From Gordius sp. MW1 (taxonomy: Eukaryota; Nematomorpha; Gordioida; Gordea; Gordiidae), in NCBI GenBank assembly GCA_964036665.1, contig OZ038526.1, forward strand, positions 3,782,001 through 3,846,000: a stretch of 64,000 bases of DNA, given 5' to 3'. The notes below the pieces were generated by a model, which saw only the letters and a list, made by a program, of their open reading frames with translations, made no database searches and was not told where the DNA came from. This document shows, piece by piece, positions 8,132 to 62,182 of the stretch. The first letter of the stretch is position 1, and each line of letters begins with the position of its first letter. The position numbers and the translations under genes are program-made.

Positions 8132-9393
8132 ATGTTGGTCTTATCAATTTTATTAACCATCGTTACCCTTACAATAGGCCAAAAAAATATTGGTCTCATT
8201 AACATCAAAGATGTAAAGGATACTTGTAGTCCATCTGATTCCGGATATGGTCAGCCATCGTAAGTTCTGACACTATATTTACTAAAAATTGTTAGATATT
8301 GTGGCAAAAAAGGTTTACAAATTTTATTTTTACCAGGGCCGAGACGCTTAAAAAAACGACTCAGTACATGAGATCAGCACCTAAAGCTGAGTTTGGACAA
8401 TGTAACAGGTATATAAATCTATTTTCCAAACACAAAAGCAAGGCAGGGGGGAGGGGCAGAAGGTAGGGACAGCTGCCTCCCCCCTCTCTAATCCAATTTT
8501 TAATATATTTACAAGGATTAATGTCAAAAATTGAAAAAATCTTTTTCGTGTTTGCCGCTTTTAGTTTCAAATAATTTTATGATGAAATATCATTCGTGAA
8601 TGTTAATTTAACAGGTACGACAGTGAAGATTGCAGAGAGGGTCAGGGTAAAAAAGTGGAATGCTTCAAACACAACAACGTGATTTATAATATCGTAAATA
8701 TACCTAAGGTTCATGAAAGGACGGTCAATTATCACGACTGCAAGTTAAATCACATAGAGAATATATTTTCATAGGCGTAGCCAGTGAGGGTGGCAGGGAG
8801 GGGCGGTTGCTCCCTCTAAATCCAAAAATTTATTGAAATTCTTTAAAATTATGGCCAAAATTTCAAAAATGATCATTTTGCCCCTCCTTGAATCAATATT
8901 GCCCCCTTTCTAATCGCAATGCTGGCTACGCCCATGCATATTTTAGTTTAAAATGTTGTAAAAAAAACAAGATTTGACAAAGTTTCTAATGTATTTAACT
9001 CTATAAAAACGTCATCACATTCGTTCATATTTTATTAATCCTCGCCGAAGCTAAATAATTTTGTACAATTCTTATAATACTTCTGTCCTAACCTTTTCAT
9101 GTAAGATAGTTATTTTATTTACTATTAATAATCGATTCGTTAAAAACCCTACTTTTTTGACATTTTTAATAGCTAGGTGCATTTTGTTGATTTTCTAATT
9201 TTGTTGTAGAAAATCAGGAGCCGACGCGAGGCCGGGAGGTCCGGTTGGAACATGCGGTGAAAGAACGTGTAAACAAAAAGGGGTCTTATTATACGTCAAG
9301 CCCAACAATGGGGCCAAGGAGGAAATTGTCATGGCTACTTTGCTCTTACCCTTTTGCTTTTGTCGAGTATTATATTTAGCATCCAATTTTTAA
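8132..9393 (+). CDS. Secreted cystine-knot protein, Spätzle-like, gene A of a tandem pair
   Basis: Four exons: 8132-8259, 8337-8408, 8615-8743 and 9210-9393, joined in consistent phase. The first exon encodes a hydrophobic signal peptide starting MLVLSILLTIVTLTIG. The mature part carries a cysteine array with SEDC, VECF, an IVNIP strand, HDC, GTCGERTC and, near the C-terminus, LPFCFC. This fits the Spätzle/NGF-type cystine-knot layout (a VN strand, spaced Cys, and a C-terminal CxC preceded by Pro), and it aligns exon by exon with gene B at 11900-12834 with the same intron phases. An alternative last splice (after CFCR into 9487 onward) would change the final residues. A MITE (8770-8936) occupies the third intron. 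It may be a Toll-type ligand or a neurotrophin-like factor; the family call rests on spacing only. Confidence 0.6.
8770..8936. mobile_element. CATGGGCGTAGCC-family MITE, copy 4
   Basis: Ends are CATAGGCGTAGCC and GGCTACGCCCATG. Flanks TATATTTT and CATATTTT agree at 7 of 8 positions. The insert lengthens intron 3 of Spätzle-like gene A. Confidence 0.85.
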
Positions 9394-11187
9394 AACTAAA
9401 AATTAAAAAAAATTATTATCTTTAAAAGACCTAATTTAAAAACTAATTTTTAAAAACTTTTTTTCATATTTATAATATCGTTTTAAGGGTGCCAAATGCT
9501 GAAGATTGGTTTGAAGTGAAGATGACACAGGAATGAATTCTAAACGTTGCCTCGATAAATGAATCAATATATCTATAGGTGTTAAATTATTTTCAACGTG
9601 CTTAAAATTGTTACACGGTTATAGAATAAAAACAATTTGTATAAATTTAATTTAAAATTTGCATCTTCAGCCCTGTTATATTGTTAAAAATATGATACAT
9701 AAATTTTATTATAAATTTCGTACATCCCACTACCCTGCAATAATAAAATTTAGAAGGTAGGCGAAAGATGATTGATGAATTATAAATTATTAAAATCTTA
9801 TTGGCTTTAATAGCGTAAATTTAATTCTTAATTAATTCTCTAAAAAACTATCTCGAAACGAGGAAATGCTGATACAAGCCAAATTTTAGTTATAAAGATA
9901 ATTAATCTTTTTATTTTTTATAAGTATTTAATATGGTTATTTAAACTTACATTATTTTCTTGTTTATAGAAATTGCGGGTATACTATTAGAGAAGAGTAT
10001 AATAATAAGATACAAATAGAATTAATACTCAATGTAAATGATAATTTTACAAAGCGTTTTGCACACTTCATTCTTGCATGCTTGATTTTTAAACTTACTT
10101 TAAAATCTAATTTCTTTAGTGCGTGCTAATTCTATTATAAATTAATATTCCTTATGGTTTAGTAAATTCATTATTTTAAGTTTACTTTTCAATGATCATG
10201 ATATAGCTAACTTTTATTTAGTAAATACAGCTGGCACCCCCAAAGCCGGGCATAGACTTTTTGTTAAAATTGCGGGCCGGGCTTGGAGCGTTATGGTAAT
10301 AAAACGGGCTTGGGACCTTCCTAGCTAATAGTAAGTAGGGGCAAAACTTTTTTATTTTAATATATAAAAAATGGTGTTTTTTTATGATAATTAGCAAATT
10401 TTATATTAATTAGCTTTACAATATAATCAGATCCATAAAAATTGTTGTTTGCTATTTATTCATAAAACTTGTGATTTTTAAATAAAGGGATTACAAAAAT
10501 TTTTATTTTTTAATAAGGGGATAGTGAAACATTACCATAAACAGGTATATTTAGTTATATAAAATTAACCTTGCATAGAGTTTCAATTATTATAAATAGT
10601 TTTATGCAGTTTCAAGTGCTACTAGTGAAAATAAAACGGCGCGTTACTTGTTGGAAGAAACAAAAGTCCATTTGAGACTGATATATATTTAACATGATTG
10701 TATAAATAAATGATTATTATTAATTAGTATTGGCAAAAAGGCTGCAGAAAATATAGGAATTATTTTTCGGGACGGGTATAGGCCGGGACCGTGCTTTGCA
10801 AAAAAATTTCGTGGCGGGCTCAGGCCTATAGTTTCATTTCAACGTTCCCGAGCCGGGACAGTTTTTGGTACTGGTGGGCAAAATAAGCATAAAAGGCCCG
10901 TGCATGTGATTAGTTTAAACAATGCCCCTACTTAGCAAAAACATAAAAATTGGAACAAGCTCCTGGCAATTAGCGTCCTTAAAGATATTATTAATGCATT
11001 TTTAACCCAAAACTTAATCTAATACAATCTTAATCCATGGCTCGATGCCAGCTCATTAATTTAATATATTATAGCATACAACATACATAATTATTTGGGA
11101 ATAAACTTCTATTGGTTTATCTTAGATATTAATTTTAATTGTTATATAATTTCAACTTATTTTTATTTAATCGAAATCTTCAGACCA
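9394..11187. other. AT-rich intergenic stretch between the two Spätzle-like genes
   Basis: No gene seen. A possible alternative terminal exon of gene A lies near 9487-9536. Within 10236-10902 are two G/C-rich patches (GGGCCGGGCTTGG, GAGCCGGGACAG) around an AT-rich core, resembling a diverged DNA transposon, but I could not define clean inverted ends or a target duplication. Confidence 0.4.
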
Positions 11188-11195
11188 ATTTTAAC

Positions 11196-11614
11196 TAGAG
11201 ATGCACCGATACCAAGTATCGGCATGGTATCGGCGCCGATACCTTGCCAAAAGAATCGGCCCGATACTTTGCTAGTATCGGCAATTACCAAGCCGATACC
11301 TTTTTCAATATGAAACTCAAAAAACAATATTTATAGTATCTCCTACCATTAAAAAATAGAGGACTTTTTAAATTTTTTGAAAATTGTTTCATTTGATTGG
11401 CTATAAATATTTCTTTACAATTGTTTTATCGTCAAAATTCTGATCTACCAAAATTTGGATGTGACTTAATTTATAATATTTAATTTGCATATATTTTTTA
11501 GTATAAAAATTTTTTTTATTATAAGTATCGGCATGGTATCGGTATCGGCAAAAAAATCTTAAGTATCGGCTGGTATCGGTATCGGCATAAAATAGTGGTA
11601 TCGGTGCATCTCTA
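11196..11614. mobile_element. hAT MITE with TAGAGATGCACCGATA ends
   Basis: A 419-bp non-coding element. The left end TAGAGATGCACCGATA is matched by the inverted right end TATCGGTGCATCTCTA. It has a perfect 8-bp target duplication, ATTTTAAC, at 11188-11195 and 11615-11622. Subterminal TATCGG/CCGATA motifs recur on both sides, as in hAT elements. Confidence 0.93.
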
Positions 11615-11899
11615 ATTTTAACCCCACCCCCTCCCCTCCCCCCTTAATTGGGTAATCTATATATAATCTAAATAATTTTTCAATAAATAGTATTATATAA
11701 TTCGTTTGAAAACCTCCCCGATTAGGCAATCCTCCCTGTTTATGATATTATTTTAGCGGCATCGTGCACTAAATATTCAGCTTGAGGCCATCGATTCCCT
11801 ACCTAAACGCTTAAATATTAACTTCAAATATGCCCCAAACTCAATTTAAAACTTGTCACTCTTTTATTGCAATTAACTTTTCCACCGCCATTTTCAACT

Positions 11900-12834
11900 A
11901 TGACAAGCCAAATTTTCATAGACATTGGCACCCTATTCTTTCTACTGTGTTCCATCGCCACGGTGGAATGTCAAGGCGGCACGGTGACAAATTTGGGGAC
12001 ATTCAAGTTGGATTCGGACGACGACAACCTGGCTCAAGTTAGAGCCGCGCCCGCCGGCCCAGCTATGTTTAGATCGGCCTCGAGAGGACAAAATGCGGGC
12101 GAATGTCAGGGCATGCTAGGCCGAAGCGCGACACGATCTCAACAACCACAAACTGCAGAGTAATTAAAATGATACCTTGTTGAAATATCTCATGCATGAT
12201 GACTGTTTAGATTTCAGGCGTTGGGGAAAGGCAGTTTAGGGAGATCCGCCACACCGCAAATATTTCAACAAGCCCAAGGCGAATTTTTCCGAACGTGTCA
12301 AAAGTAAGTTATTTTTTCCCATGAGAAATGTATAAGCAAATTTAAATTTAAATAATATTGGGAAAAACATTATAACAGGGGAAGTCAAAGACAGAGTGAA
12401 GATTGCCAAAGGAATTATCGATATTTGGAATGTTTCAACGTGGAGCCGCACGGTGATTTGTATGTGGTCAATATCCCGGGTATTTACGAACAGAGAATAC
12501 GTATCAATACTTGTAGGTCAGTTTTTATGGCAGACCCTTGTTATAAAAATTTAAATTGTTTATCAATATTAAAAATAGTTTCACAATTAATAAATTTTTT
12601 AACTAATTTTCAAAATAAATGAAATTAATATAGGATTTATACTGTTTATATAGGAACAACGTGAAAGACTGTTGCAAAATAGGAAATAAAAAGACCGGTC
12701 ATTGCAAAAAACGATTTTGCAAAAACGAAGTGCTTTTGTTCAAGCCCCCCAACAATTATTTCGAATGTGAATTGGAATTGCCATTTTGCAGTTGCACAGT
12801 AAACATAGGGAATTATATACTTTTTAAAATCTAA
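11900..12834 (+). CDS. Secreted cystine-knot protein, Spätzle-like, gene B of a tandem pair
   Basis: Four exons: 11900-12159, 12211-12303, 12379-12516 and 12654-12834. The chosen ATG at 11900 begins a signal peptide (MTSQIFIDIGTLFFLLCS) cleaved near ATVECQ; an upstream in-frame ATG (11867) would bury it. A low-complexity, Ala/Arg/Gln-rich pro-region follows. The C-terminal half has SEDC, YLECF, the strand VVNIPGIYEQRIRINTC, then CC, GHCKKRFC and the final LPFCSC. The VN...Q.IR...C strand and the Pro-x-CxC end resemble the Spätzle cystine knot. Cysteines, exon borders and phases match gene A, so the two are tandem duplicates. Gene B has a longer pro-region and more G/C-rich coding sequence in exon 1. 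Function inferred: secreted dimeric ligand after proteolytic activation. Confidence 0.65.
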
Positions 12835-13403
12835 TTTGATTTATTAAATGAGCTTCCAACTTCTTCAAACATTTGATAAATATGAACATGGGGGTAGTTG
12901 GGGCTAAACAGTGAACGGCAACAGATATTCCTAAATTTGACAATTTTGCTTAGATTTTGTAAAAACTTTGAGAATTCTTCTTGGCCCTCACTAAATAAAT
13001 ATTAATAGTATACTGCCCTCTAATCTTAAACCTAGCCCATGAATGTGATCTAGTGATGTAAGGTAAGCTGTTATTTTATTTATACCTTAAATTAAATAAA
13101 GTTTGCGACAGAATATTAGGTAAATAGGTTTTGTTACTACAATATTAATTAGTATGTTAAAAGATAGGACGAGAAAAATGCTGTCGAAATTAATAACTTT
13201 ATACCAATTTGCTGTATATTCATTCCGGACGTTTTCTAAAAAACTATAAATACCATAAAAAGATTTTCAGAAATAGCATTTTAGCTCTTAATGACTTTGA
13301 TAAAAATTGATATTAGGTACACATTGAAACATAGTTTAACAAATAACATAAATCAATTTATAACTGTAATATTTCGTATTTATAAAGGTTTAATATCTAA
13401 ATG
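12835..13403. other. AT-rich intergenic stretch
   Basis: Downstream flank of Spätzle-like gene B. I see no coding signal or structured repeat. Confidence 0.4.
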
Positions 13404-13566
13404 CATGGGCGTAGCCAAAAAGGGGGGGGGGCCCCCCCCCCCCCAATTTACAAGAGAAAAAAAAATTTCGATTTGAAAAATTAAAATTTTTTATGTTTTG
13501 CCCTCTCTAATTGAACTTTGAAACGTTTTGCCCCCCCCCCCAAACAAAATCCTGGCTACGCCCATG
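13404..13566. mobile_element. CATGGGCGTAGCC-family MITE, copy 5
   Basis: Perfect inverted ends CATGGGCGTAGCC / GGCTACGCCCATG and a perfect 8-bp target duplication TCTAAATG (13396-13403 and 13567-13574). The inside has G- and C-homopolymers. This is the cleanest copy for defining the family ends. Confidence 0.95.
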
Positions 13567-14397
13567 TCTAAATGGAAACAGTAAAATAATTAAAATTTCA
13601 TGAGCAATGTTAATTCTATTCGTTACACCCTATTCTTATCTATAAATGTAAAAAGCAATGATTTTTGTGTGGGATAACCCGCCCGAGAGAATTAATAACA
13701 TTTTGCCATTGAACCAGACTTTTTATGAATTTCATTTTTGCTTTATTAACTCATATTTTCTTAAAAGGATAAACCGCAGAGCCCATATTGCTATCATAAA
13801 ACCACTACGCCACCGTGTAGCTTTTGCGGGGACGGTCCCATTAGGATTCGAAACTAGTTTTTCAAATTTTCTTCATGTTCAATCAATTTTACTATTCTTT
13901 GATTATTGAAATTTCAAATTTTTTGTTAGAGACGGTTTAAACCTGTTGTTATTATGAATAATAAATTATAAATTTGTCTAAGGAATATTAATAAATTGTT
14001 TATATATATAGAAGAATCTAGTTTCAAAACTTATGAAATTAGTACTTCTAATGAAATTCGAAATTTGTGACACCAAAATAACACAGGTCTACAAATATTA
14101 ACATTGTGATTCCATCCCGCAACCAGACCAATAATTCTGATAGAGAATTTTGCGCTGAATAATTAATCAGTTTTTAGTTTTTTCCAAAACTTTCAGCTTT
14201 TTAGATAAGCTATGTTAAAGGTGCAAAAAATACTCATTTTAACCTTTTTTGAGGCTATGTTGCCATGGCATTTTTTATTATTACTGAAAAATATTGATAC
14301 ATCTCTAGATTAAAGTTTCAGCTATAAGTCCATTGTTTTTTTTGTTTCGCCTCTATATTTAGCAAATTTATTCGCGTTTGCGTGAACCCCTTTCTTT
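13567..14397. other. AT-rich non-coding stretch
   Basis: No gene supported. On the minus strand 13812-13767 contains a good Pol III A-box (TGGCGTAGTGG) but only a weak B-box, so a decayed SINE is possible. Confidence 0.35.
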
Positions 14398-28099: not shown

Positions 28100-30992
28100 T
28101 TGACAAGCTCCATTCCCCAATTATTGTTTGGTACGCGACTGCCCACGGCGAAGGTGTGGGTAGACGGTACGTTAATTAAGTTTATTTTAGACTCTGGAGC
28201 TTGTGTAAGTTTAATGTCCATTTTACAATTTAATAATCTTTGGCCTGGTAAAAAAGCTTCCCGACCTTTTTTTAATGCCCGCCAATTAGATGGCGCGGCG
28301 GTGGAGTTAGTGGGCAAAGCCTGGAGGTGGCGGCTGGCGGCGCGCGTTGGACATTGATATTATATTTAACAGCCACTAAAATCGATCCTTTAATGGGTTG
28401 GGATTGGCTGCAGGTGATAGGCCCGCATGTTAGATGGTTTGGTCTCTGTGACTCATTGATAGAAACAACCCCTAGTTGTTGGGTAGCTCCTAGTGTGAAA
28501 TCTTGCCCGGGTGGGGTTGCGATGATATGTAATATTGAGCTCCCGAGTGGTGCCGAAGTTACGACTTTAGTCGTGAAACCTCTTTCGACGTTAATCGTCG
28601 GTACACCTACGGGTGTGACGCCTACGGGTGTGACGTCTACGGACGTGTTGAGTGGATTCGGCGACCTGGGCAGGTGGCAATTGAATTTGCGTAATATAGT
28701 TAGGAGCTACGATTTAGTTTTTGCTGAAGGTTTAGGGTGTTTGAAAGGTTATGAATATGAGGTGAGACTCAAACGTGGGGCCTATCCCAAATTTTGTCCA
28801 AGTAGGCGCATCCCGTTCATATGGCGGGACGAGGTAAATGCGGTTCTGCGGGACTGAACGGAACAGGGGATAATTACGCCCGTTGATTATAGTGAGTGGG
28901 CGACTCCTCTGGTTCCAGTTAAGAAAGTCGACGGGTCTTTGCGGCTTTGTATTGATTTTGGGGTTACGCTTAATCCGTGGTTGTTGGAAATTAAGTACCC
29001 AATGCCGCGGGTGGAGGAAATTTTAGCGAATCTAAATAATGCATGTTTCTTTACAAAGCTGGATCTAAGGTCGGCATATTTACAAATTAAATTAAGTGCT
29101 CGTTCGGCGCGGTTGATGACGATAAATACTCCTTTGGGGTTGTTTTCGTTTAATCGCTTGCCGTTTGGGTTGAGTATTTCTGCGGCGGTGTTCCAGAAAA
29201 CTATGGCCTCCGTTTTTCAGGGTTTGGACGGTGTATTCTTTTACCTGGATGATGTGCTGATTGTTGGCACTACAATGCAAGAACACGATTCGCGTTTAGA
29301 GTCAGTTCTTAAGCGCATCCAGGAGAGGGGATTACGTCTAACTATGAAAAAATGCATGATCGGAGTGACAGAAGTGACATTCTTAGGGCACGTTATTGCA
29401 TGTGGGAAAATACGCCCTCTGGGTAGTAATGTGGCTGCGATTTTAAAGATACGAGCCCCAACTAACAAGAAGGAAGTCTTGTCTTTCATGGGGTCTGTGA
29501 ATTATTATCGCAAGTTTAAACCGCATTGCTCGGAGGTAGCAGCTCCCTTGCATAGGTTAACTAAAGACAACGTGCGTTTTGTTTGGTCCGATAGAGAACA
29601 GGTAGCTTTCGAGAAGTTGAAAAACTTGTTGGGAAGCGACCCAGTTCTGGTGTGTTTTAATCATAACCTTCCCATAGGGTTGGCGGTTGACGCATCGAAG
29701 AGTGGTATAGGTGGCATGCTCTTTCATGTTATTAAAGGAATAGAGCGGCCGATACTATTTTTTTCACGTAAATTGACGGCGGCAGAGCTTAATTATTCTG
29801 TAATAGAAAAAGAGGCTTTAGCTGTAGTGTTTGCGTTAAATAAATGTCGTGAATATCTTATTGGTCGTAAGTTTAAAATCTTTACTGACCATAAACCACT
29901 AGTTCCTCTTTTTGCGAAGTGTAATGGTAGTTTGTTGCTAAGCCCTAGGTTACAAAAATGGTTGTTGTTCTTAGGTAACTTTGACGTGACCTTGGAGTAC
30001 AAAAAGGGCGCAACGAACTATGTTCCAGATACATTATCGCGCTTAGGTGAGAGCGATGAAGCGGTACCTAAGGAGGAACTAGAGGGTGAGAATTATTTGA
30101 TTAATGTTGTAACTCAAGCTTTTCCGTCAGTTAACCTTAAGGAGGAGGTGGACAAGGACGAGGAGTTGCATGGGGTTACTAAATACTTGAATGGTCAGGC
30201 GACAATCGAGGAGGTCGCTAGGTGTTATCGTGGCGTGTTTAACGAACTCTATCTGGACAATGGGGTTGTACTACGTGGCGAACGCATAGTGATTCCACGG
30301 GCGTTGCGATCACAAGTGTTGGAATTATTGCATGCTGGACATAACGGCGCGTCTAAAATGAAAGCAATGGCGCGTAATTATGTTTGGTGGCCTAAAATGG
30401 GCGCTGATATTGGCATGTATGGGCGTAAATGTACTGCGTGTAGTAAAAATGCGTGCATGCCCAAGCATGATAAACAAGCTAGGTGGCCGCGGGCTCGAAA
30501 CGTTTGGGACCGGGTACATCTAGACTTTTTCGACTTTGATTCGAAACAATATCTTTTACTGGTGGACGCAGCTTCGAGTTGGGTTGAATTTCAACGCATC
30601 ACGAAGCTGTCTACTGGGGTTTTTTAAAGAATTTAATGGGCGCTTATGGTATCCCGAGGTATATAGTATCCGATAACGGTACTGCTTTTACTAGCGCCGA
30701 GTTTAAGGTGTTTTGCGGTAAATGGGGTATACTGCATTTATTAACACCTCCATATCACCCAAGTTCTAACGGGTTGGCGGAGCGACATGTTGCGATCGTT
30801 AAGAAATGTTTGAAAAATGAGAAGGTAGAGAAGGACGGCATATGGATGTATAGACTATTACATAATGCGTCCCCTCGCTTTCCGTGTCGCGCCCCGGTTA
30901 GTAAAATATTTTTAAATAGATTACCTCGCGTGCCGATCGATGTGTGGGTGGACTCCGGTTTAACAACTAGCGAGTCCGCTCCCAGTCTGTAG
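28100..30992 (+). pseudogene. Gypsy pol (protease, RT, RNase H, integrase) with three breaks
   Basis: Protease: ILDSGACVSLMS (28184 onward). Its end, PLMGWDWL, lies in another frame after a break near 28330. RT begins around the in-frame TGA at 28855-28857; SEWATPLVPVKK, FTKLDLRSAYLQIKL, NRLPFGLS and the active site FFYLDDVLI follow. RNase H: LAVDASKSGIGG and TDHKPLVPLF. Integrase: an HHCC zinc-binding region (LLHAGHNGASKMK...CTACSK), core Asp in HLDFFDF/LLLVDAASSWVE and, after a T-run frameshift near 30625, YIVSDNGTAF and NGLAERHV completing the DDE triad. Downstream residues 31020-31152 continue a plausible integrase C-terminus in another frame. Few lesions and intact motifs fit the youth indicated by the LTRs. 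Confidence 0.93.
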
Positions 30993-33235: not shown

Positions 33236-36016
33236 TCAACTTCTCGACGAATTGATGTACTTGTTCTGCTGATTGTTGCATTGTTCTTGTGAGAAATAAT
33301 CTCCTGGGAGACTTAAGTTAGTCTCGTATAGCACTTCCGCCTGCGTGCGACCAATGTCTTCCTTGATGGTTGTGCGGATACTTAATAGGACAAAGGGCAG
33401 AACTTCACTCCATTTTGTGTTTCCTGAGGCTTTTAACGAAGCCTTTAACTGCCGGTGGAAACGTTCGACTACCCCGTTCGCGGACAGGTGGTAAGCTGTA
33501 GTTTTGATGTGTTCGCATCCTAAAATATTCGCGAACTCTCTAAAAAGCTGTGACTGAAACTGGGATCCCCTATCTGTGGTAACTGTACTCGGAACCCCAT
33601 AATTTGCCACCCAGTTCTTGATAAATTTGTCCGCGATAACTTCGGCGGATGTTTCTTTAAGTGGTATGGCCATGGGCCATCTCGAGAAACGGTCAACTGC
33701 CGTTAGCATGTGAGTGAACCCGTTGGAGGGTGGTAATGGTCCTACTACATCCAAGTGGACATGAGCGAATCTGGCATCGGGTTGTTTAAAAGTACCTGGT
33801 TTCGTAATGGTGTGTCGGTGTACTTTACAACGTTGACATCTTAGGCATGTTCTTGCCCAGTTAGTGACGTCCTTGTTGATAGATGGCCAGACTACGCGAC
33901 TAGTGATGAGCTTTAAGGTGGTTCGAACTCCTGGGTGTGATAACGAGTGAAAATGGTCAAAAACTGTTCTCCTCAGTGCGTCAGGTATGACCGGTCGAGG
34001 TTTAGTAGTCGACAAATCGCAAAGGATTTTGTTATCTGACCCTGGGATGGGTAATACTTGTAGTTTTAATGAAGTAGTATCTTCTAAACCTTCCAAAGAC
34101 TTGTCGTTTTTCTGGTGCTTGCTAATGTCGTCTAATTCTGGCATTTTTGGAAGATTTACCGCGTCTACTCCTATCCGAGTTAGAGCATCTGCTACTGTGT
34201 TTCCTTCGCCTTTAATGAAGCGAATGTCAGTGGTATATTGTGAAATTAGGTCGAACTGTCGTATCTCTCTCGGAGAGTACTTATCAGGCTTAGCGTCAAA
34301 GGCGTATATGAGTGGTTTGTGGTCGGTGTACACGGTAAATATTCGGCCTTCCAGGATATGTCGAAAATGCTTGATTGCTAGGTAAATGGCGAGAAGCTCA
34401 CGACCAAATGTACTGTATCGAGATTGTGTTGGCTGAAGTTTAGTAGAGAAAAACGCTATTGGTGTAGCCTCTCCGGCCATTGTTTGTTGTAATACCGCAC
34501 CGACTGCTGAATTAGAGGCGTCTGTTGTTAGTGTAATTTGGGTTTCTGGACTGGTATTCAAAAAATTTAGCTTGGTAAAATTGATTAGAGCGGATTTTGC
34601 TGTGTCGAAAGCTTCTTCCTGAAGTTTGTTGAACGCTATGGATTTTTGCGGATTCTTTAGTATGTCTGTCAACGGATTTAGGGTTTTAGCAATATTGGGC
34701 AGAAATCTTCGATAGAAGTTGATTATGCCTAAGAATCTTCGGAGTTGTTTACATGAAACTGGCGTTGCAAAGTTTTTAATAGCCTCAATCTTCTCTGGTA
34801 AAGGAATAATACCTGCGGCCGAAACTTTGTGACCCAGGAACTCTAATTCTCGCACTCCAAATTGACATTTTGCAGGGTTGATCCTGAGGTCGTACTTTTG
34901 GAGTCGTTGCAAGACGGTCTTTAGATGTACCTCGTGTTCCCCTTCTGAGCCGCTTGCTATAAGTACATCGTCGATGTACGCGTAGGCGTAATTCAGTCCT
35001 CGCAAAACTTCGTCTATGAATCTTTGGAACGTTTGGGCTGCATTTTTTAGACCAAACGGCATCCTCGTGAATTCGTAAAGACCGAATGGTGTCGTCACGG
35101 CTGTTTTACAGATGTTGTCCGGCGCTACGATGTGATGGTAGGCTCTAACTAAATCCAGCTTGGAAAAAATTGCTTTTCCGTGAAGGTTAGCTGTGAAGTC
35201 GTGAATGTGAGGAATTGGGTAACTGTCTGGTACGGTGACTTTGTTCAAGGCTCTATAATCTCCACACGGACGCCAGTCACCTGATTTTTTAGCAGCCAAA
35301 TGTATTGGTGCCGCCCAGTTGCTTTTAGATTTCCTTATGATTCCCAGTTCCAACATATATTCAAATTCTTTCTTAGCAACATTAAGTTTTTCAGCAGTAA
35401 GTCGCCTTGGACGTGCGTATTGTGCCGGCCCTTTTGTTGCTATGTGGTGAAAGATGTCGTTGGTTGAAATTTGTTGGGTAAAATTTAAAGGAGTTAGGAG
35501 TGATGGAAAGTTGTTGATCACAGATTTTAACTTAGAGTCCTGACTCGAAAGAGCTATGCGGATTCCTAACGTTTGATGATGGGTGGAAATTCCTTTTGAA
35601 GTTACGTGAGTCAGACCATCAATTAATCGCTGGTTTTTGACATCTACGATGATGTTGTATTGGTGCAAGAGGTCGGCTCCAATGATAGGGGTGTGTACCT
35701 CGGCGATCAGAAACAACCACTGTATTGGGCGTCTCAGACCTAGATTGATGGACAACATCTTTTGTCCATAGGTAGAGATACTGCTTTTATTGGCCGCCTG
35801 CAATACTGGACCATTTGGTACCTTAGGTGAATTGACGGGTCTTGGAATGATGGACACGTCAGCTCCTGTATCAATCAAAAATTTATGTCCTGACGTACGA
35901 TCAATGATGTAGAATAGGCGACTTGGTTTATGACCGTTTCCGGAAGTCGCCTGAATGGAAAGGTCAGTTAGTTTTTTGACTGGGAGTTTGGGGTAAATGC
36001 ACATGGTTGTGTGCAT
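33236..36016 (-). CDS. Gypsy element 2 pol polyprotein (protease-RT-RNase H-integrase)
   Basis: A single open frame of 926 codons. Order: protease ([15 protein letters not shown], residues about 48-62), RT ([42 protein letters not shown], active site [11 protein letters not shown]), RNase H ([31 protein letters not shown]), and integrase with an HHCC region ([11 protein letters not shown]...CLRCQRC), core Asp in [12 protein letters not shown], Asp in [10 protein letters not shown] and Glu in NGVVERFH. The long intact frame suggests a fairly recent copy, but no gag ORF or LTR is seen upstream (36017-36150), so the 5' part is missing. It lies on the opposite strand right beside element 1 and is a different lineage (DTGA/YIDD versus DSGA/YLDD). 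Confidence 0.95.
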
Positions 36017-38129
36017 TTTTGAGCGTTACCCTTGAACTTGTGGTGATACCAACAAATTTCTTCCCGACGGTGTCTTGAGATTATATAAGTGTTATACTAT
36101 TGTTTTGTATTGAACATATACACACTTACTTGATTAAATGTAGGTGTAAGACCCTCATTATTTTGATTTTAAGATGCAAGATATGTTTATTCTAATACTT
36201 CCTTAATTTTAGAATTTTAGCTTGCCTGCATCCGCTTTTAAATTTTTAAGAATTTGAAAAAAAATACTACTTTGTGATGTTATAATCTCATCTTGCCAAG
36301 GTCTCGAAGAAAAATATCGTCTCATCTCGGGAGCTATGAGATACTAAAAATCGTCACGTATCGAATAATATAACTATTATTGCATTAAGAACATAGGAGT
36401 TAGACACCATTTTATACATAAAATCATTTGCCTAATCCATTTTATAATAATTTTGCATAACAAAATTATTTACTTATTTTATTAAAGAAATGCTAAGTCG
36501 TGGAATTAATTTTTCTAAGGTAGGAATTACTGTATTATAATTTTATTCGGACTTTTTGGAGATGTAGCAATATACCAATAATTGGATTGGTATATTCTTA
36601 AAATATATAATTTTTGGACAGCATCTATTAATAAAAGGGGGAGAGGGTTTCAATTTTTTGTAGATGATATGGATATATGTTTGTATTTATTTTTCCAGGG
36701 AATTCTATTTTTAATTGAGTTTTGGAGTTTTGTCCAACTCACCGACGTTCTCCTTGAGTAGCTTGCTCCATCTCAGTATGAACAATACAACGGGTCTATT
36801 GAAATAAGTGGAGGGGGGATATTAATATATATATATTCTGTGTTTGGATCAATCTTTAACATGGATTTTTATTTTTTTTTGGGGGGGGGGGGATTTAGTA
36901 CATAGAATTGATGCTAAGAAATGACTAATGATCGCCACAGCGAGCGAGTTTTGGTAAAACCCCAGAACCTGTAAATAAAACCTATTCAATAATGACCCCA
37001 ATGATAATTATCAACTTTAATTAAAATCGAATGTTTAAATTCTGTTGAGAGAAAAGGAATTTTCGGAGTCATAGATCGCCATAGAGTGTTATCTCTAGAA
37101 CCCTGCAAAATTGATCTTCATAGCCCCAAACCCATAGTTCTAGAATTTAATTTGTCTGAACCCAAATGAGCTCAAATTTTTTTTTATTTTTGACCCACCC
37201 GAGCTTCACTTTTTTAAATCGCAATGGGCACATTTTTAACATAAAATATATTTAACCTTATAACTAATGAATTAGTTGAAGAATTAGGCATAATATTTAT
37301 CTTGCAAATTTTTCAATTATTATTTTTTGAATTATTTTATACGTTTGAAGTTTAAAAAATTGCTGTCAACAAGTGATGTTTGTAATTTTATCTCCAGCTC
37401 TAAATATAGAGATCAGTTTCTCCTACTCTTTATAAATCCATCCTTAACACTCTTTAGCAACAAATATAATTGATTGATAGTATATTATTCTATTTATTCC
37501 AATAGCTATATAATTAAAATTAAGAATAACTAATTACAATCGTTAGGAGGGGAATATTAACTCATGAGCAGCGTAAGAGCTTTTTAATTCTTATAAGGTT
37601 GGATTAAATTAAAACATATTTAAAATAATATATGACCTAGGGGTTGCTTTGGGCCGCGCTCAGGCCAAGTTGGGCCGCCCGTGGAGGCGTAATTATCGCT
37701 TCATTTCTAAATCAAAGATCTTATCCAATCTTAGTGGTTTAAAGTCATTTGTTATATTTTTACTGTCAATCCTTAATAATATATATCTTTGTATAAAACT
37801 GTGGGGTTGGATTGATAGTACTTCGTTTTAGATATGCGGTGGAAATCATTTGATGTATTTTGTTGGATAAAAGCGGTGGGGTTGGTTCATAGACTAATAA
37901 AACCATATACTGCCGAACAGCTGATTTTTACTATTAAAATTATTCAGACACTAAAATAGCTGCCATTTTGTAGGAAAAACTCAACAACAGGTATATTTAT
38001 ACTTCTCCACGATATAATATTGAAAAAAATAAATAAGATTAAAAGCTTAATTTATAAATTAAAAAAAATGAGTAAATTAGAACAGTAAATTATGCTGAAT
38101 ACTATCTTTTGGCTACAATTTCCCACAAA
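36017..38129. other. AT-rich non-coding stretch
   Basis: No supported gene. 36290-36360 carries CTCGTCTCG-like transposon motifs shared with 3168 and 6660-6800. 37650-37690 is a short G/C-rich patch (GGGCCGC...GGGCCGCCC) of unknown origin. Confidence 0.4.
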
Positions 38130-52270: not shown

Positions 52271-55036
52271 GCTATACGGCGCCCCCATTCTTTCAGGAGG
52301 GCTTGGGTTTTAGGCCCTATTGTTGTAAGGGTAGTGGTCACTAGGGCAGAAAAGGAGTGAGGAATTAAGTTCTGCGTATTTAGCTGACTTTATTCTTTCA
52401 GAGTCGACAAGGGGGTATTTGTTATGGTTTGAGGGTGCAAAGGCATCCGGACAAGTGTAGTCCCATGCTAGGCATAGCCCTTTTGCCCATGGGATGAGGG
52501 TCTGTCCATCGGGTCTCTTCTTGTCGCTAAGGCAAAGACCATTAGGCTCCAATTGGGAGGGTAAGCCAGCCTTATTGAATGTCTTCTGTAGAAGTGCATT
52601 AACAGATGTGTGCTAAAAATCTGGCCTTATTAAATTTGCAATGTAGGCCGTGATGACCTTTTGTACCTACAGATGAGCCACATAAGTTGCATTGATGGGG
52701 GGGGGGCAACTATATCACAACCTAGGCGGAGCCCTGTTGCGATCCTGAACTCGTTGTTGGAGAGTTGAAGGTCATGGGTCCGACTTGGGATGGCCTCCAA
52801 CCACTCGTGGCCGGACCTTGATGCAAAACTTCTTAAAGCTGGTAACTCCTCCAACGAAGCGCCCGATGTAAGAGTTTTAAGGGCATGGTCGTAGAGAGGA
52901 GTGTTCCAACTTTTTTGAGAGTTTATGGTAGGGAATGGAGTGTTAGGGTCTGACAAAGAGCTCCACATGTCGAGAGCGATTTGGGTAAAGGGATCTGGTT
53001 GATCGATTATTTTGTCGATGATTGGTTTGGCTGAAAGTCGGCTCGAGATGAAGGCCGACAAAGCTACTAGAGGGGGTGATCTCAGGCCCAAACCACCATA
53101 TTTTGTGGGGAGACACGCTTGTTTCCATTGGGACCCTGTAAAAGAAAGGTTTGTGATTTCCTCGACTACACCTTTGAGTTTTTGGTCGAATATAGATAGA
53201 GCACTAGGATTTAAAAATGAGGTGGATGACCTGAAGATATGATTTATCTTAGGTAAAGAATAGCAGTTTTTAATTAAAAAGAAAGCCTGGTGGGCTGGCA
53301 AGTAAGAAAGGAGGGGTTTGATTTCTACTAGTTTTTGTATTGTCTCTGTTAATGACTTATTACAAGGGTGTAAGCCACCTACGGGAGATCCTAAGTGCGT
53401 TAGTTCGTTAGGGTGAATATGTTTGAAAGCGTCAAAGTATGGGTCTAGGCTTAAAGAGTCAGTATTGTTTTTGCAAACCTCGGTCTTGCTATGATTTAGA
53501 TGGAGACCAATTTTTGAAGCCTCGACTTCTAGATAAGAGAGGGCTTCTTTGACGTCTTCGGCATTTCCCTTGATGGTACCATCGTCTAGGTACCACAAGT
53601 TGAGTGATAGATTATATTTAGAGGCTAGGTCTTCAGTCAGGGACTTTATACCTAGGCAGAATAGAAGGGGGCCTAGCGGGTCTCCTTGTTGAATGCCGTC
53701 ACTCGATGCAATTATTTTGGAATTAAAGTTGAGCATGGAAGTAGGAGCGTAGCACGCGTTAAGGAAAATGGAGTACTCGGGAAGAGATTTGTAAGCCTCG
53801 GTTAAGAAGTGTGACCTGTAGATCGTGTTAAATGCGTTTTTGAAGTCAATCTTTGCTAGGATCGAATGGTCGGGATGGGCTAGGGCTATGCGAACAGCGT
53901 GAGAGGCGATTTCACAACCACCCTTGGTTCCGAAACCTAGTTAAAAAGGAGCTAATTGATCTGTAATGTCGGATTTTACTCGTGCAATGATAAGTTTGCA
54001 GCATATGCGTCTAAAAATTGAACCCATGGCAATTGGACGAAGGCCACCATCAGGTTTGGTAAGAGATATTAAGGTGGCCCCAAAAAAATAGGGAGAGATC
54101 GCGTCAGGTACTAAGCCTTTAATAACCTGGTTAAGGAAGGTTGCTAGGGTGGATGTGAAGTGGCCAGACCTGTCAATGTGAGGTCTTGTTAATTCTATTA
54201 AATGTGAAGCACGGAAGCCGTCTAAACCAGAACCTACTGAGGATTTTTTAAAAGAACCGATAGCCTCGAGAATTTCGGGCGATGTGAAGTCCTTGAAGGG
54301 GGAGTTGATTGTAGGGGGAAATTGGGAGCCATTTCTTTCAGGGTGTTTAGTTTGTAAAGATTCGAAGGTTTCTTGAGTGTCTGGGGAAATTTTGCAGTCT
54401 GAATTGGCCAGGCGAAGGGCACCCTGTATGTCAAAGTGGTTGAGTTTTGAGGAAACCCGTTTGGCTCTTTGTTGAACTGATGTAATCTTATGGATGTGTG
54501 GCTCGTAGATAATGGGGGGTGATGAAACGTCCCATTTTGCTGAGTTTTGTTTAACCCAATTCGAGAGGGTACCTTTGTAATTTGATGGTGGTATTGAAAG
54601 GACACGGGAAGTAAATTGAAAAAGGTTGGCCCAATGGAGGGTGCTGCTTGGGCGTTTAGAGAGGTTTGAGATGGCATCAGTAAGGGCAATTAGAACTTGA
54701 TGTCTGGCACCTTTAGGGATGTTTTTTAGAATCCTGTTAACAGGAGAATGAGGAATGTCTGAATATGTATTGGTGGTGGTGGTTTCGAGCGGGGAGTAGG
54801 TATTATGCAATAAATGGTTGTGAGTAGAGGTAGACCTCTTGGGGACTGTACTGCTGGATTCCAGAGCCTGGGCACCTCTGTTTTAATGGACCGTGAACGT
54901 AAATCAAATTAGAGAGGGTAATTGAAGCTAACCTGTAGCAGACTGGGCAGATTCCGGTTTGGGTTGTGGAGTTTGTGTTCATGTATAGAAGGATTATGGA
55001 TATTTGGGATAAACCTGTAGTAGAGTAAAATGGCAA
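52271..55036 (-). mobile_element. Non-LTR retrotransposon with C-terminal restriction-like endonuclease
   Basis: Read on the minus strand: an N-terminal zinc-finger-like ICPVCYRL...HGPLKQRCPG (about 54955-54870); RT from 54810 with SSVGSGLDGFRASHL, PYFFGATLISLTKPDGGLRP and LGFGTKGGC; then FKNAFNTIYR, IQQGDPLGPLLFCLGI and the active site LWYLDDGTIKG (53590). A CxxC...H...C knuckle (CNLCGSSVGTKGHHGLHC, near 52670) is followed by a restriction-like-endonuclease motif: KRPDGQTLIPWAKGLCLAWD. The domain order (RT, CCHC, RLE) fits early-branching non-LTR elements. Breaks: a stop at 53941, frameshifts in the G-run near 52700 and between 52570 and 52630, and a change of frame at 54805. Confidence 0.8.
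52630..54810 (-). pseudogene. RT ORF of the RLE-type element, broken by one stop
   Basis: 54810-53941 and 53736-52630 lie in the same frame, separated by a TAA at 53941-53943 just before LGFGTKGGC, where a Gln codon is the likely ancestor. Palm, fingers and thumb regions are otherwise continuous for about 700 residues, so the copy is comparatively young. Confidence 0.8.
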
Positions 55037-56414: not shown

Positions 56415-59400
56415 TCAAAGGTAGGAAAGATTGGGGTGCTGTGCGATGGAATTTAAAAAAGGGTTCGTGTTGCGTTTCGTCAAAGCTTCATGAGTCTTGT
56501 TGGTAAAGTCCGTCGAAGTTCGAGGCCCGGGGTTGGAGTCGCCGCGAGAGAGCGGTGCTTGGGAGCTGGAGCAGTTGTTGGGTGATTGTTGGCTAACGCT
56601 GGGCGATTTTAGGTATGGATGGACCATGGCCGTTCGCCCGTCCAAGCGTATCGGAGTGGAGGGATTGGCGTTAGTGCTGCTGTTGTCACCAGTGTACCCT
56701 AAGAGATGCCCTAAATGAGGGGCGTTGCGTTGAATATGTTAAAGGTAAGAATTATTTTTCCCAAACTAGCTGAATTAATTCGTTGGTCTCCGATTAATAA
56801 AGAGTAGTAAACCTTTAAGGCTAAAGTAATAAAAATATGGTTTTGCTAAATTTGAGTAGCAACTAGAAAATTTTGGTAACTATCGATAAATACGGCATTA
56901 AAAAGAAGATACAAAAATATTATCTATTGTTTCGCTTGAAATGTTAAAACTTACCACGATAGGAGAGGTGATAATTATATGGGTAGGCGTGGGCAGGCCC
57001 ATTCATCATACCCAACCCGGGCAAGATGTTGTGAGATTCTAGGAAGGGATTCGTAATTTTGGTGGCGTCACCGTTCGCGAGATTATCCATTTTGAAACCT
57101 AGCGATATGATTACAAGCATACACATATATTTGTCCAAAAGCTCTTCCACAAACTAAAACACAAGTGTACCACGTAGGGGCCCGTCTTAATACGCGATTT
57201 TGAATCTAGATTAAAAAAGCGAATGCACGTTAAAACATAGCCGCGTCTTAATACGAGCGTCACGTCATTTTTGTCCTGTTTTTGCTCATAAAAACAAATA
57301 TTTATCCTTTAATTACGCTTATTAATGCATATTCATATGGTAACTAAACTAAAATTGTTGATTCCACGACATGTACATCGCGTATTTAGGTAAACAAAAA
57401 TATGGCGCTTTCAAGTTGAATCATATATTAATAAAATGTATATACTACCATTTAAGGCGTGATAACTATCCCCGTTGCTCAAACCGTTGAAGAGGGTGGA
57501 AGACGAGGTGCTGGGAGCCAAGGAGCAGGCCGGGGCAAAATCTTGCGTTATTTGTCGACACAAACGTTTAATACTGTCACCGCCGTCGGACGACGCGAAA
57601 TCGAGAAACCCGCTAGCCGTCGCCCCCGCGACTTGACAACCGTTGACGTTGTTAGGGTGCGGTGTGACGGGGTGATAACCGTTGGGGACACCTTCGTGTC
57701 CGGATGATATCACGTTGGTGAGGGGTAGGGCATGGTTGGGCACGAATGCTGATATTGTGGCTACTTTATGCGCGTCGCTCGAGCTCGACTTGTCACCACC
57801 TTTCGAGACATTGCGAAAAGAAGATGCTCATTATTTGTTTTAAGTATTACAATTTACCATAATTTGGATTCCGTTGCGATCGCCTAAATTGTAATACAAC
57901 CAACACCTCAGCGCGCATTGACTTCGCCACAAAATAGGTTGAGTAAAGCCATTACTATTGCTTAGCATTAAAAATAGACGCGAGAATGACAAATTATACA
58001 AATTCAAAGGGAAGAGCAACCATATTACACTGCCTGCCTTAATAGCATGAAGACTTACGAGTCGAACCTTATTTGTTATGATGATAAAAAAGGAGGGCAC
58101 CACCCTAATCTAACGGATAACGTTTTGTAGAACATTTTCGTGCTTTAGGTCATACTTCTGAAGACGGCGGAGGGGTCGTTAGACAGATAGTCATCTTTGG
58201 AGGTGTACTCCTCGCGCCTTTGCAGCGTGGAAGGCAACTCCATGAGGCGCAAAGATAGTTGCTTTTTGAAGGGCGAGAATGATTTGCTGGTGAGTTGGGG
58301 GCCTCGAAACGAGGCCTGCCTCAACAAATCCAATTTTACCGTCGGCCTTTCCCTCGCGGTGATAGGCAATTCACGAGGCTTATCGACGATGGAGATTTCT
58401 AGTGGATGAAACGAGAAAAATTAGTTACTTAATAATCGAAACATATTAAAGTTGCTGTGCCAACACTTGTGGTAACTTCTAAATACCGGCGCGTATCGAA
58501 ATCTCGTCTTAACGCAAAATATCACGCAAATAAAAATCATGTGTTAATGCTTGAAAACTTAGAGATCAAAACTTCTACCGGGTCAAATAAGGCTAAGGGG
58601 ACAAAGGGATAGATATCTCGCACAAGGCTCGCGACTAAGGACGTCAAAACATAACGGGAACAATGGTCAGGAATGTCGAGGATTGTAAAAATGAGCGTCA
58701 ACGCCATAATATTAAATTCGGCAAAGATATGTGGCGCGCAAAAACCTGAAAAGTTTGGGCGGACATTCTCCTGCCCATCAACCAATTTATCGGTGAGCGT
58801 TCCGGTTTTGAACGAACCGAATCGGGTAAACGAAGTTTGGTTGTTGCCGTCGAATTTTATAGCTACGCCGCACTCCTTGTCGCGCGCCTGTTTGCGCTCC
58901 AGGCAGGCCGCGAACGCGCACCCAACGGCGTGGCTCAGGCGTTCGCCCTAAAACATCGCGATGCCATTTATTTAAATTTACACATAGTTTCGGGCATGAA
59001 TTTTGAACGAGCGCTCCCAAAATCCTTAAATTCATATAATGGCAACTCTTTTTCGAAATCCAACCTGATGTTATTTAACTAGCTTGTAATGATTTGGGAA
59101 CGCTCCCTCATGGAGTAATATCGTATAAAATTTTTTGCAACGAAGCTGCTGAAATGATACGCGAAACGTAAGCCATAAATGAGCACAAACATAATATTCA
59201 TTTGATAGTAAAGATTCAATTATAATTTTTAATAAAATTTTTTATTATCCAAATACTATTACTACAATGTTCAACGATCACTGCGCATAAAATAAATATA
59301 ATAGAAAGTATGTGACGCTAGCGGCAAGTAACGTGTACGCGTTTTAGCAAAGGGAAAGCCATGGCAAAGTATGTGAAAGTAGTGAAATGGTGGCGCCGTA

Positions 59401-62182
59401 TGCAGAGGTAAGGAAGTAAAGCGAGTCAATAATGCGACCCAAACGATGCTGCTCAGACCGATAACTTTGGCAAAATGATTACATTCCTCACAGGCGAGTA
59501 GCCATGGCCGAAATTTAAATTTCTTTCTTATTAATAACTAATTTAAATGGGTTTAATTATTATTATAAAAAGGCGAGAGTAAATGCTCTGATTGCTATGC
59601 TAAAGAGAAGGGATTTTTCCAAATAGAGCGCCATGAAGTTTCGCATATCTTCTACGCCAAGTTTATTTTTGTTGCATTATAAATAAAGTGTCGAAATATT
59701 TTTTGAATTTTTCCTCCCCCTTGAGAAAATCCTGGCTACGCGCCTGATTCCTCATTAAAAATTCCAAACTTCACGGTGAAAGTGTCACGTGTTCTTTATG
59801 TTATGCTTTGAGTGTGCTAAAACACCCCCAAAAGTGGAATCACAAAATTATTTACTTAAAGGGTTCTTATATTAGTTATGAGCCAAAGGTCTCGGTCTAA
59901 GTGCACGAATGGGGGTGCGAAAGGAGCGTAGGCAGCAGAAGAAACGCAATGGAGTCGAGAGGGGGGGGGAGGGGGCAAACGGGGACTTCTTACTCACCTT
60001 GACGACATCGTGCTTCTTGAACAACGACATTTTCTGGCGTACGCGCGCGTGCGACGGGTAAAAGAAGATGTAACATCACGCATGTAAGTTTGAATGGCAA
60101 CAAAAATAAACACTACACTCACAAAACATGTCAAGCGCAATCGTATAACATGGAACGTGACGAGAGTTATTTAAAAAAAACTAAATTTAACCAACTGTCA
60201 CATGATAAGAGACTTTACAGAAAGAGTTGCCAATTAGGCCTGGAGGGGAAAAGGTGAGTTACGAGGCGGGAAAAACTATATTTAAAAGCGCACTGATTCG
60301 TCTGTCGTTCATGCAAGGTGAAAGGGGGGAGACAGAGAGGATGCCAATTTTCTATTAACACAGTCAGAGGAGGTTCAAGGTTAGTTGTCTTTTCAAATTA
60401 ACCAGGCTTTTAAATATAATTTTAGTGCCAAAAACTTAATTTTCGTCCATATTTACCTAGGAAATTATATTAAAAAATGGCATGGTTGATGATTAAATAT
60501 AAATCATTCTATAGATATTGCCTTGCCATTTTATTTAAGGTTCATACTGCACCGATGATGACACTAAAAAGTAATTTGTTCATGCTGAGGAGCCTATAAA
60601 AACTGGTTTGCAATATGGCTGTAAAGAGGTGATTTAATCTCTGGACTCTCTTTAATATTCTAATAAAAAACTCCGATAATGACGTTAACAAATTTGTAAA
60701 ATCAACCAACAAATAATTTACACTAAAATCGTGCGAAAGGAGAAAAGTTATGGCCAGCGTTGTGTTACGACTTACGGAAAATTTAACGGCCAAAAAGCCG
60801 TGGCACATCCACCTCCGGGTCGCGCCGTCGCGGCAAATGTAGGAGAATCCGCGATCGTAATTACGGTCCGGGGCGCAAAACGAGACCTTCTCTATCGTTT
60901 GATCCACGATCAGGCCCTACGTGTTGCGTTAAATAAACCCCAATCATTTTTTTACTAATCAATTAAATAGTTATATCGATTTTCGTGCGTAGAGCATTAT
61001 AGTACGACAAAGTGCACGAGACGAATATATATTTATATAGAGCATGCGACAAAGGGCAAAACAAAATGGAAGCATGCTCGGGGTGCAAGTTTTGGGTCGA
61101 TAAGGTGCATGAACGAGAGAGGTATCTAACAGGCTCAGGAATACAACGAGGAGGAGCGTCATGCTAAATGCAATTTTAAGTATCAGTCCGTTATTGTCGA
61201 ACAAATCTTGGTTGCACGAGACATAAACGACACAGGCACTAAGGAGACATATATACAAAGTCCAAACTCCGGAGACCGACGTTAAGCGCGACTCTACCTG
61301 GGTCGCAACGTCTATGACTTGGATGCTGGTCGTCGATATTTTCAGCAACGCGAACGTCGGGATCGATTTTCTCACAGTCTGCGCGTGTCACCGCACGTTG
61401 GTGGTATAATAAATGGAAGCGTATACAATTAAGTGGTACTGGTCAATTTTAACTTTGAACGGCCTACCCTATAACTCTACGCCTAACAACTCTCGCGCGT
61501 GTGACAAGTGTCGCGCCAATCACCAACCTCCCCTAAAAAGTCACACCTATATTGCCGGACAAGCGTGGCGAAATGTGTAGTAGTGTTATAAAAACGGGTG
61601 GGTTTTGTTAGGTCGCCCTTTGGTTTTAGTCGACTAAACATAGACAAACCCAAGAGCCGTTTTTACAACACTAATACGTAGCAATTCCGGCAACAGGGCA
61701 GACAGTTCAGGGAAGTTTTAAAGAAGGGGGGGGGGGGAAGGGAGCGGGTAAGGGGATATGTAAGTTTCGAGAAAGGGTAAAGCGCCCACAAAAAGTACTT
61801 TGGAATCCTTGTCTACGACCCTCAGGGCTTCGCCGCTAACATGCAAAACGGCTCTCATCGGTTTCCTCTTATACCTCTATGAAATGGATCAAACATTTAA
61901 CGTGATTAACGTGTATAATTCTAATTAAGTTCAAACGCTAAAGATTTTTTATAAAATAAAATTAAAACTTTGTGAAAAAAACTTATTCGTTAAAGTAAAA
62001 TTAATTCACGTTAAAATTCAATATAAATTAAAAGGAGTCACCCTTATATGCATTATCATGAACTGACGATGAAGGTTAAAAGAGGGGAGAGGGGATGTGA
62101 AACGACTTACCTTGAGGACCTTGAAGGCTTCTTCGCAAACCTGCATGCCCCGGGATTCGAAAACCTCCGTACAACCCAAATA
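56415..62182 (-). CDS. NUMB: Numb endocytic adaptor / cell-fate determinant, 5' partial
   Basis: Exons on the minus strand: 62111-62182, 61799-61876, 60776-60916, 58746-58947, 58156-58398, 57449-57799, 56955-57098 and 56415-56698; every phase agrees. The PTB domain is nearly complete: [75 protein letters not shown] and [19 protein letters not shown]. The Numb-specific block follows: [26 protein letters not shown], and [11 protein letters not shown]. The C-terminus has two NPF motifs (TNPFLES, TNPFLNS), which bind EH-domain proteins. The PTB lacks the vertebrate insert after the VLK helix, like insect Numb. The first exon(s), expected to end in CSFxVK, lie right of 62182 and were not found. 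Function from the family: asymmetric inhibitor of Notch via α-adaptin and EHD/Eps15. Confidence 0.96.
59706..59745. repeat. MITE right-end fragment within NUMB intron
   Basis: TTTTTCCTCCCCC, then AAAATCCTGGCTACGCGCC: the right end of the CATGGGCGTAGCC family without a left partner. It lies in the intron between the fourth-last PTB exon and GERLSH exon. Confidence 0.55.
59998..60030 (-). CDS. Possible alternative first exon within NUMB
   Basis: An 11-codon ATG segment ([11 protein letters not shown]) ends at a strong donor, AAG|GTGAGT, in phase 0. The next NUMB exon (GERLSHAVG) also begins in phase 0. If used, it would give a Numb isoform lacking most of the PTB domain. It may equally be chance or belong to an unrelated transcript. 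Confidence 0.3.

Follow-up and report, generated by a model that had tools for sequence, protein, structure and literature searches.

Daphnia has at least 14 genes of the Spz7 and Spz8 types, which include tandem copies and show additional cysteines in the domain (PMC2772990). A 2020 survey of Ecdysozoa reports Spätzle homologues, within its dataset, in panarthropods only, namely its tardigrade and onychophoran samples; for the nematomorph Paragordius varius it gives a Toll receptor with several cysteine clusters and no detected Spätzle (PMC7056985). Its authors propose that Spätzle-driven Toll activation arose in panarthropods and add that the failure to detect it in other groups could reflect the stringency of the search; in the literature accessible to us this was the only report found to join Spätzle and a nematomorph. 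A Spätzle homologue has also been described from a mollusc (Yu et al. 2015, cited in PMC8637286). Here we describe two neighbouring genes, A and B, in a 64,000-nucleotide stretch of the genome of the horsehair worm Gordius sp. MW1 (the window; positions 3782001–3846000 of contig C8 in an assembly of 12 contigs and 211.8 megabases, Mb), which an earlier note had proposed to encode a lineage-specific pair of Spätzle- or NGF-type ligands. We consider it rather likely that A and B belong to a lineage-specific family, eight genes strong or larger, whose small secreted proteins either derive from Spätzle or have a common ancestor with it and are probably Toll ligands.

Both genes lie on the plus strand at the place given in the earlier note, with open frames and exclusively GT-AG introns, gene A spanning 8132 to ~9366 and gene B 11900–13857 (Table 1). 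The guanine plus cytosine content is 0.42 (A) and 0.46 (B) in the coding parts versus 0.18–0.34 in the introns. In each gene, exons 1–4 can be joined without a break of the frame, and each of the three junctions is in phase 2. Splice sites were picked by hand to join frames, aided by protein similarity on either side (for exon 2 of B the acceptor at 12211 was taken, as 12218 does not serve), and the equal phases of A and B are therefore not a blind result. The proposed four-exon structure thus stands for exons 1–4 of both genes, and B has a fifth exon. A phase-0 GT donor follows exon 4 of B at 12799, after the CxC motif, and the stop at 12834, previously taken as the end of the gene, is wrong because exon 5 lies at 13768–13857. 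Exon 5 of B and that of its paralogue C both start in phase 0 behind an AG, after a GT donor right past the CxC motif; the two are 50% identical (E = 4e-7, search of fetched sequence), and each tail adds three further cysteines. With the C protein as query, a genome search matches the exon 5 stretch in the window (E = 0.29). In gene A, read-through past the donor that follows 9366 would add eight residues up to a stop at 9391–9393.

The N-termini of A and B are hydrophobic on the Kyte-Doolittle scale, and those of the other members look alike by eye. Family pro-regions are short and variable, opening with an N-[LI]-G motif in most members; that of A, previously described as almost missing, comprises ~50 residues. 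As the earlier note had read them, both proteins contain an (I/V)VN strand and finish with LPFCxC. Between the two genes, at window 11197–11614, a short element with terminal inverted repeats (TAGAGATGCACCGATAC...) was read by eye and resembles a DNA transposon of the non-autonomous kind. Copies of GGGCGTAGCC, in this or the complementary form, occur at window 1585, 1690, 3508, 8924, 13407, 13554, 21441, 41261, and 63484, the copy at 8924 being inside intron 3 of A and those at 13407 and 13554 inside intron 4 of B.

A and B are, as judged by comparing their sequences, homologous beyond chance and paralogous: BLASTP aligns them with 40/122 identical residues (33%; E = 7e-11, one-sequence search). 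The expectation that a plain search might miss one from the other holds for the exon-wise genome search, which with A as query matched nothing besides A, and fails for BLASTP. Six further genes of the same design, C–H, lie on another contig (C2), where C and D as well as E and F sit in tandem; the supposed pair is thus part of a family with eight members or more. They were found by exon-wise genome searches with B, F, G, and C together with tblastn of fetched loci, and each was modelled by hand; eight is a lower bound, as only the best candidates were scored and D, E, and H never served as queries. All three junctions are in phase 2 in 8/8 genes (splice sites hand-picked), and a phase-0 GT lies within one codon of the CxC motif in all eight. 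Searches for a tail exon 5 in A, E, F, G, and H gave unconvincing candidates only; that of F (locus L018, minus strand, ~425 bases past the CxC donor) reads PPMNECDTC, faintly like PPCSFC in exon 5 of B.

Domain identity to B is 69% for C, 42% for D, 40% for E and F, and 36% for A. Because the nearest relative of B is C, which lies on a different contig, a recent tandem duplication giving rise to A and B is ruled out. The proportion of differences at nonsynonymous sites (pN) is lower than that at synonymous sites (pS) in 9/9 pairs computed (e.g. 0.32 versus 0.86 for B and C), with pS near or at saturation, which argues for constraint at the protein level. A tree separates the eight family genes from four Spätzles with support of 98/96; it comes with a long-branch warning from the program and leaves the majority of its inner forks unresolved. 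Scans of IMG/VR and GTDB with the B domain returned pattern matches and no relatives.

The four Spätzles used for comparison are Drosophila Spz, Aedes Spz1C, and two from the same genome, S5 and S7, which score above the 27-bit curated cut-off of the Pfam Spaetzle family (PF16077) at 52.6 and 50.5 bits, respectively; the models of S5 and S7 cover the final two exons of each, with the acceptor in S5 picked to hold the frame. The family resembles these proteins in the spacing of the six knot cysteines (Cys I–VI), the P-x-CxC end, the VN...C strand in most members, a hydrophobic strand nine residues past Cys IV, and a hydrophobic N-terminus followed by a pro-region. It differs in falling under the Pfam cut-off, in having neither a Trp ahead of the VN strand nor a Cys directly before Cys V, and in carrying additional cysteines and, in B and C, a cysteine-containing tail exon, which the splice pattern alone suggests for D as well. 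The family shares a further feature with S5 and S7: a phase-2 intron just past knot Cys II, by one codon in S7, two in S5, and one in the family, which constitutes evidence independent of any sequence score.

In NGF and Spätzle the knot disulfides pair Cys I with IV, II with V, and III with VI, and we carry this pairing over to the family. In B numbering the knot cysteines are C136 (I), C163 (II), C170 (III), C181 (IV), C209 (V), and C211 (VI), Cys IV being identified by its nine-residue spacing to the next hydrophobic strand, as in the alignments of Drosophila, Aedes, and S7 Spätzle. Cys I, II, V, and VI are found in 8/8 genes, III and IV in 7/8 each, and the complete register in six (B, C, D, E, F, and G), A being without Cys III and H without Cys IV; the array previously described as common to A and B is hence mostly so. 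Additional cysteines lie five residues past IV (C186, 8/8), before I (C127, 7/8), and between IV and V (C202, 4/8). A wrong splice site was rejected as the cause of the absent Cys III in A, as the AGs nearest exon 4 break the frame or hit a stop (by eye). Although Cys III is gone, A is not an obvious pseudogene, given its open frame, GT-AG sites, and pN below pS (0.46–0.48 versus 0.70–0.78 in the two A pairs computed).

One of the seven cysteines of Spätzle forms the dimer bond (PMC8637286), which in Aedes involves Cys-94, conserved in Drosophila (PMC9427763). From the chain numbering we assign Aedes Cys-94 to the position directly before Cys V, where 0/8 family members have a cysteine. This would suit proteins that bind Toll or the canonical Spätzles without cross-linking and act as antagonists or decoys. 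However, the same cysteine is likewise absent in the above-threshold Spätzles S7 (SHCQC) and S5 (SGCYC), so that its absence is no marker of an antagonist here, and other free cysteines could form the bond; we regard an antagonist family as decidedly improbable.

Against Pfam-A, the sole family matched by A and B was PF16077, at E = 0.018 (16 bits) and E = 0.026 (15.6 bits), respectively. Full-length F matched it at E = 5.6e-4 (20.9 bits), and with isolated domains it was the only family found, in 4/8 members (best E = 8.2e-4; 19.5 bits for the B domain). D also matched Crisp (E = 4.5) and F DUF7630 (E = 1.6), both at chance level. No NGF or IL-17 match was obtained for A–G and the eight domains (E ≤ 10) or for full-length H (E ≤ 1). 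NGF, IL-17, and other knot families were rejected, since none gave a Pfam match for A–H or the isolated domains. The profile comparison suggested in the earlier note thus yields, for A and B, sub-cut-off Spaetzle matches, and of the Spätzle/NGF-type assignment the Spätzle part is supported. With a hidden Markov model (HMM) built from the four Spätzles, five members (A–E) each score above all 200 of their own shuffles. HHalign of the family (eight rows) against the same four gave a score of 19.9 (P = 0.008), which was reached by 0/300 column shuffles and by 1/300 shuffles that kept the cysteine columns.

Several results weigh against descent from Spätzle, among them the losses of Cys III and IV and the missing dimer cysteine described above. 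No reported bit score of any member reaches 27, and full-length C, D, E, G (E ≤ 10), and H (E ≤ 1) show no Spaetzle match in Pfam, where the HMMER filters discard most matches above ~0.1. The HHalign probability is 4.9%. With the four-Spätzle HMM, 5/200 of its own shuffles reach the score of F and 4/200 that of H, and G is at chance (115/200). Neither B nor the family profile matched any PDB chain up to E = 10, and a structure predicted for B exon 4 by itself, which carries little weight, shows two strands at a mean predicted local distance difference test (pLDDT) of 46. The low scores, the HHalign probability, the lack of a PDB match, and the behavior of G are what would be expected of an unrelated cysteine-rich secreted family that acquired its CxC end and VN strand by convergence. 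Set against this are the top rank of Spaetzle among the Pfam matches of A, B, and F, the shuffle controls, and the phase-2 intron past Cys II common to the family and two above-threshold Spätzles; we regard convergence as improbable. Affinity to Spätzle is supported by the knot-cysteine spacing, the shuffle controls, and the intron near Cys II, and the best reading is that the family forms a lineage-specific, cysteine-enriched sister group of Spätzle. We call it Spätzle-like rather than Spätzle because it lies under the Pfam cut-off and is without the dimer cysteine, though knot spacing and gene structure fit.

Spätzle ancestry would also be compatible with proteins that no longer signal through Toll and have antimicrobial, clotting (coagulogen-like), or structural roles. 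Coagulogen is a relative of the Spätzle fold, S5 has a weak Coagulin match (E = 0.0076), and the extra cysteines, the cysteine-containing tail, and the losses of III in A and IV in H suggest relaxed ligand constraints. However, A–H match no Coagulin or antimicrobial family, the chance-level Crisp match of D being the sole other match to a secreted-protein family, and the VN...C strand is retained in most members. We consider a role outside Toll signalling unlikely, and a Toll ligand function, as anticipated in the earlier note, probable by inference.

A Toll-type gene is found in the same genome. A genome search for TIR domains returned nothing at E ≤ 0.001 and one weak site at E ≤ 10 (E = 0.67). 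This site lies within a single frame on C8 at ~20.03 Mb, open for 1578 residues (1469 from the first ATG/GTG/TTG), which encodes leucine-rich repeats (LRR_8, E = 6.7e-21, above cut-off), a hydrophobic stretch recognized by eye, and, at its end, a TIR-like domain that stays below both Pfam TIR cut-offs (E = 0.021 and 0.033). Going by the order of these parts, we assign the frame to a Toll-type receptor; its cysteine clusters, in our own reading, resemble those of Drosophila Toll.

The gene structures, paralogy, constraint, cysteine spacing, common intron, and co-occurring Toll-type gene are the observed basis for the mechanism that we propose for the Spätzle-like proteins. The pro-form, made with a putative signal peptide, would be secreted, and its C-terminal neurotrophin-type domain, with its added cysteines, would fold around the I–IV, II–V, and III–VI disulfides. 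Proteolysis may then release or expose this domain, which would dimerize and bind the leucine-rich ectodomain of the Toll receptor from the same genome. A far-fetched variant is that the parasitic worm releases its multiplied, cysteine-fortified, Spätzle-derived family into the arthropod host, where it would act as an agonist or decoy at host Toll and tune immunity or behavior.

Like Spz7 and Spz8, as these crustacean genes are described (PMC2772990), the family shows lineage-specific multiplication, tandem copies, and additional domain cysteines (one between IV and V in Spz7). The comparison is by description only, and Spz7 and Spz8 were retrieved by tBLASTN with Spz2, whereas the family here is under the Pfam cut-off. 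Given the Daphnia precedent, multiplication of Spätzle within one lineage is no novelty as such; what seems new is the degree of divergence, the added cysteines, and the tail exon, and probably the phylum. With neurotrophins of the NGF type the family would share fold class and knot register by cysteine spacing, but none of its members matches NGF in Pfam.

Table 1. Features of genes A and B and of related loci. Plain coordinates are window positions; C2, C5, C7, and C8 are contigs and L numbers loci.
Feature	Position	Strand	Description
Gene A exon 1	8132..8259	+	Start codon, putative signal peptide, NIG motif
Gene A exon 2	8337..8408	+	Pro-region; both sides phase 2
Gene A exon 3	8615..8743	+	SEDC, knot Cys I and II, IVN strand
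Gene A exon 4	9210..9366	+	Knot Cys IV, V, VI, without Cys III; phase-0 donor after LPFCFCR
Gene B exon 1	11900..12159	+	Start codon, putative signal peptide, TNLGTFKL motif, pro-region of low complexity
Gene B exon 2	12211..12303	+	Pro-region, first N-terminal Cys
Gene B exon 3	12379..12516	+	SEDC, knot Cys I and II, VVN strand
Gene B exon 4	12654..12798	+	Knot Cys III-VI, extra Cys; phase-0 donor after LPFCSCT
Gene B exon 5	13768..13857	+	Cys-containing tail DKPQSPYC...PPCSFCGDGPIRIRN, then stop; 50% identical to C exon 5
Genes C and D	C2:15.52 Mb		Tandem
Genes E and F	C2:25.53 Mb		Tandem
Gene G	C2:7.64 Mb		
Gene H	C2:4.17 Mb		First match E = 0.94, later E down to 1.1e-4
S7	C7:14.61 Mb (L021:4498-5857)		PF16077 50.5 bits, above cut-off
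S5	C5:10.59 Mb (L022:5190-5591)		PF16077 52.6 bits, above cut-off
Toll-type gene	C8 ~20.03 Mb (L041:5391-9800)	minus	Single frame

Elsewhere in the window, a minus-strand stretch at 60542–60916 matches PTB/PID (E = 1.6e-8) and belongs to a Numb-like gene; an open reading frame at 58537–58947 on the same strand, without a Pfam match, presumably also encodes Numb-like sequence. Two polyprotein frames of the long terminal repeat (LTR) retrotransposon type, with reverse transcriptase, RNase H, and integrase-type domains, lie at 28858–30627 (plus) and 33236–36025 (minus), and a reverse transcriptase frame (PF00078), probably non-LTR, at 52630–53940 (minus), with an adjoining frame running to 54882. 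In the genome at large, the telomere repeat TTAGGG is found at 5/7 contig ends examined. Exon-wise genome searches, which included no eukaryotic positive control and do not show absence, gave no match to PF00379 (arthropod cuticle), PF01484 (nematode cuticle collagen), or PF03148 (tektin). Together with the telomere repeat these negatives suggest, short of proof, a nematomorph rather than an arthropod or a nematode. Cunha et al. are said to have reported in 2023 that ciliary genes were lost in nematomorphs.

If these assignments are true, the presence in a nematomorph of a Toll-type receptor together with two Spätzles above threshold and eight or more Spätzle-like genes would imply that the ligand-receptor pair predates Panarthropoda and underwent elaboration among parasites. 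The family would also illustrate how strongly a Spätzle-type knot may diverge with its gene structure intact.

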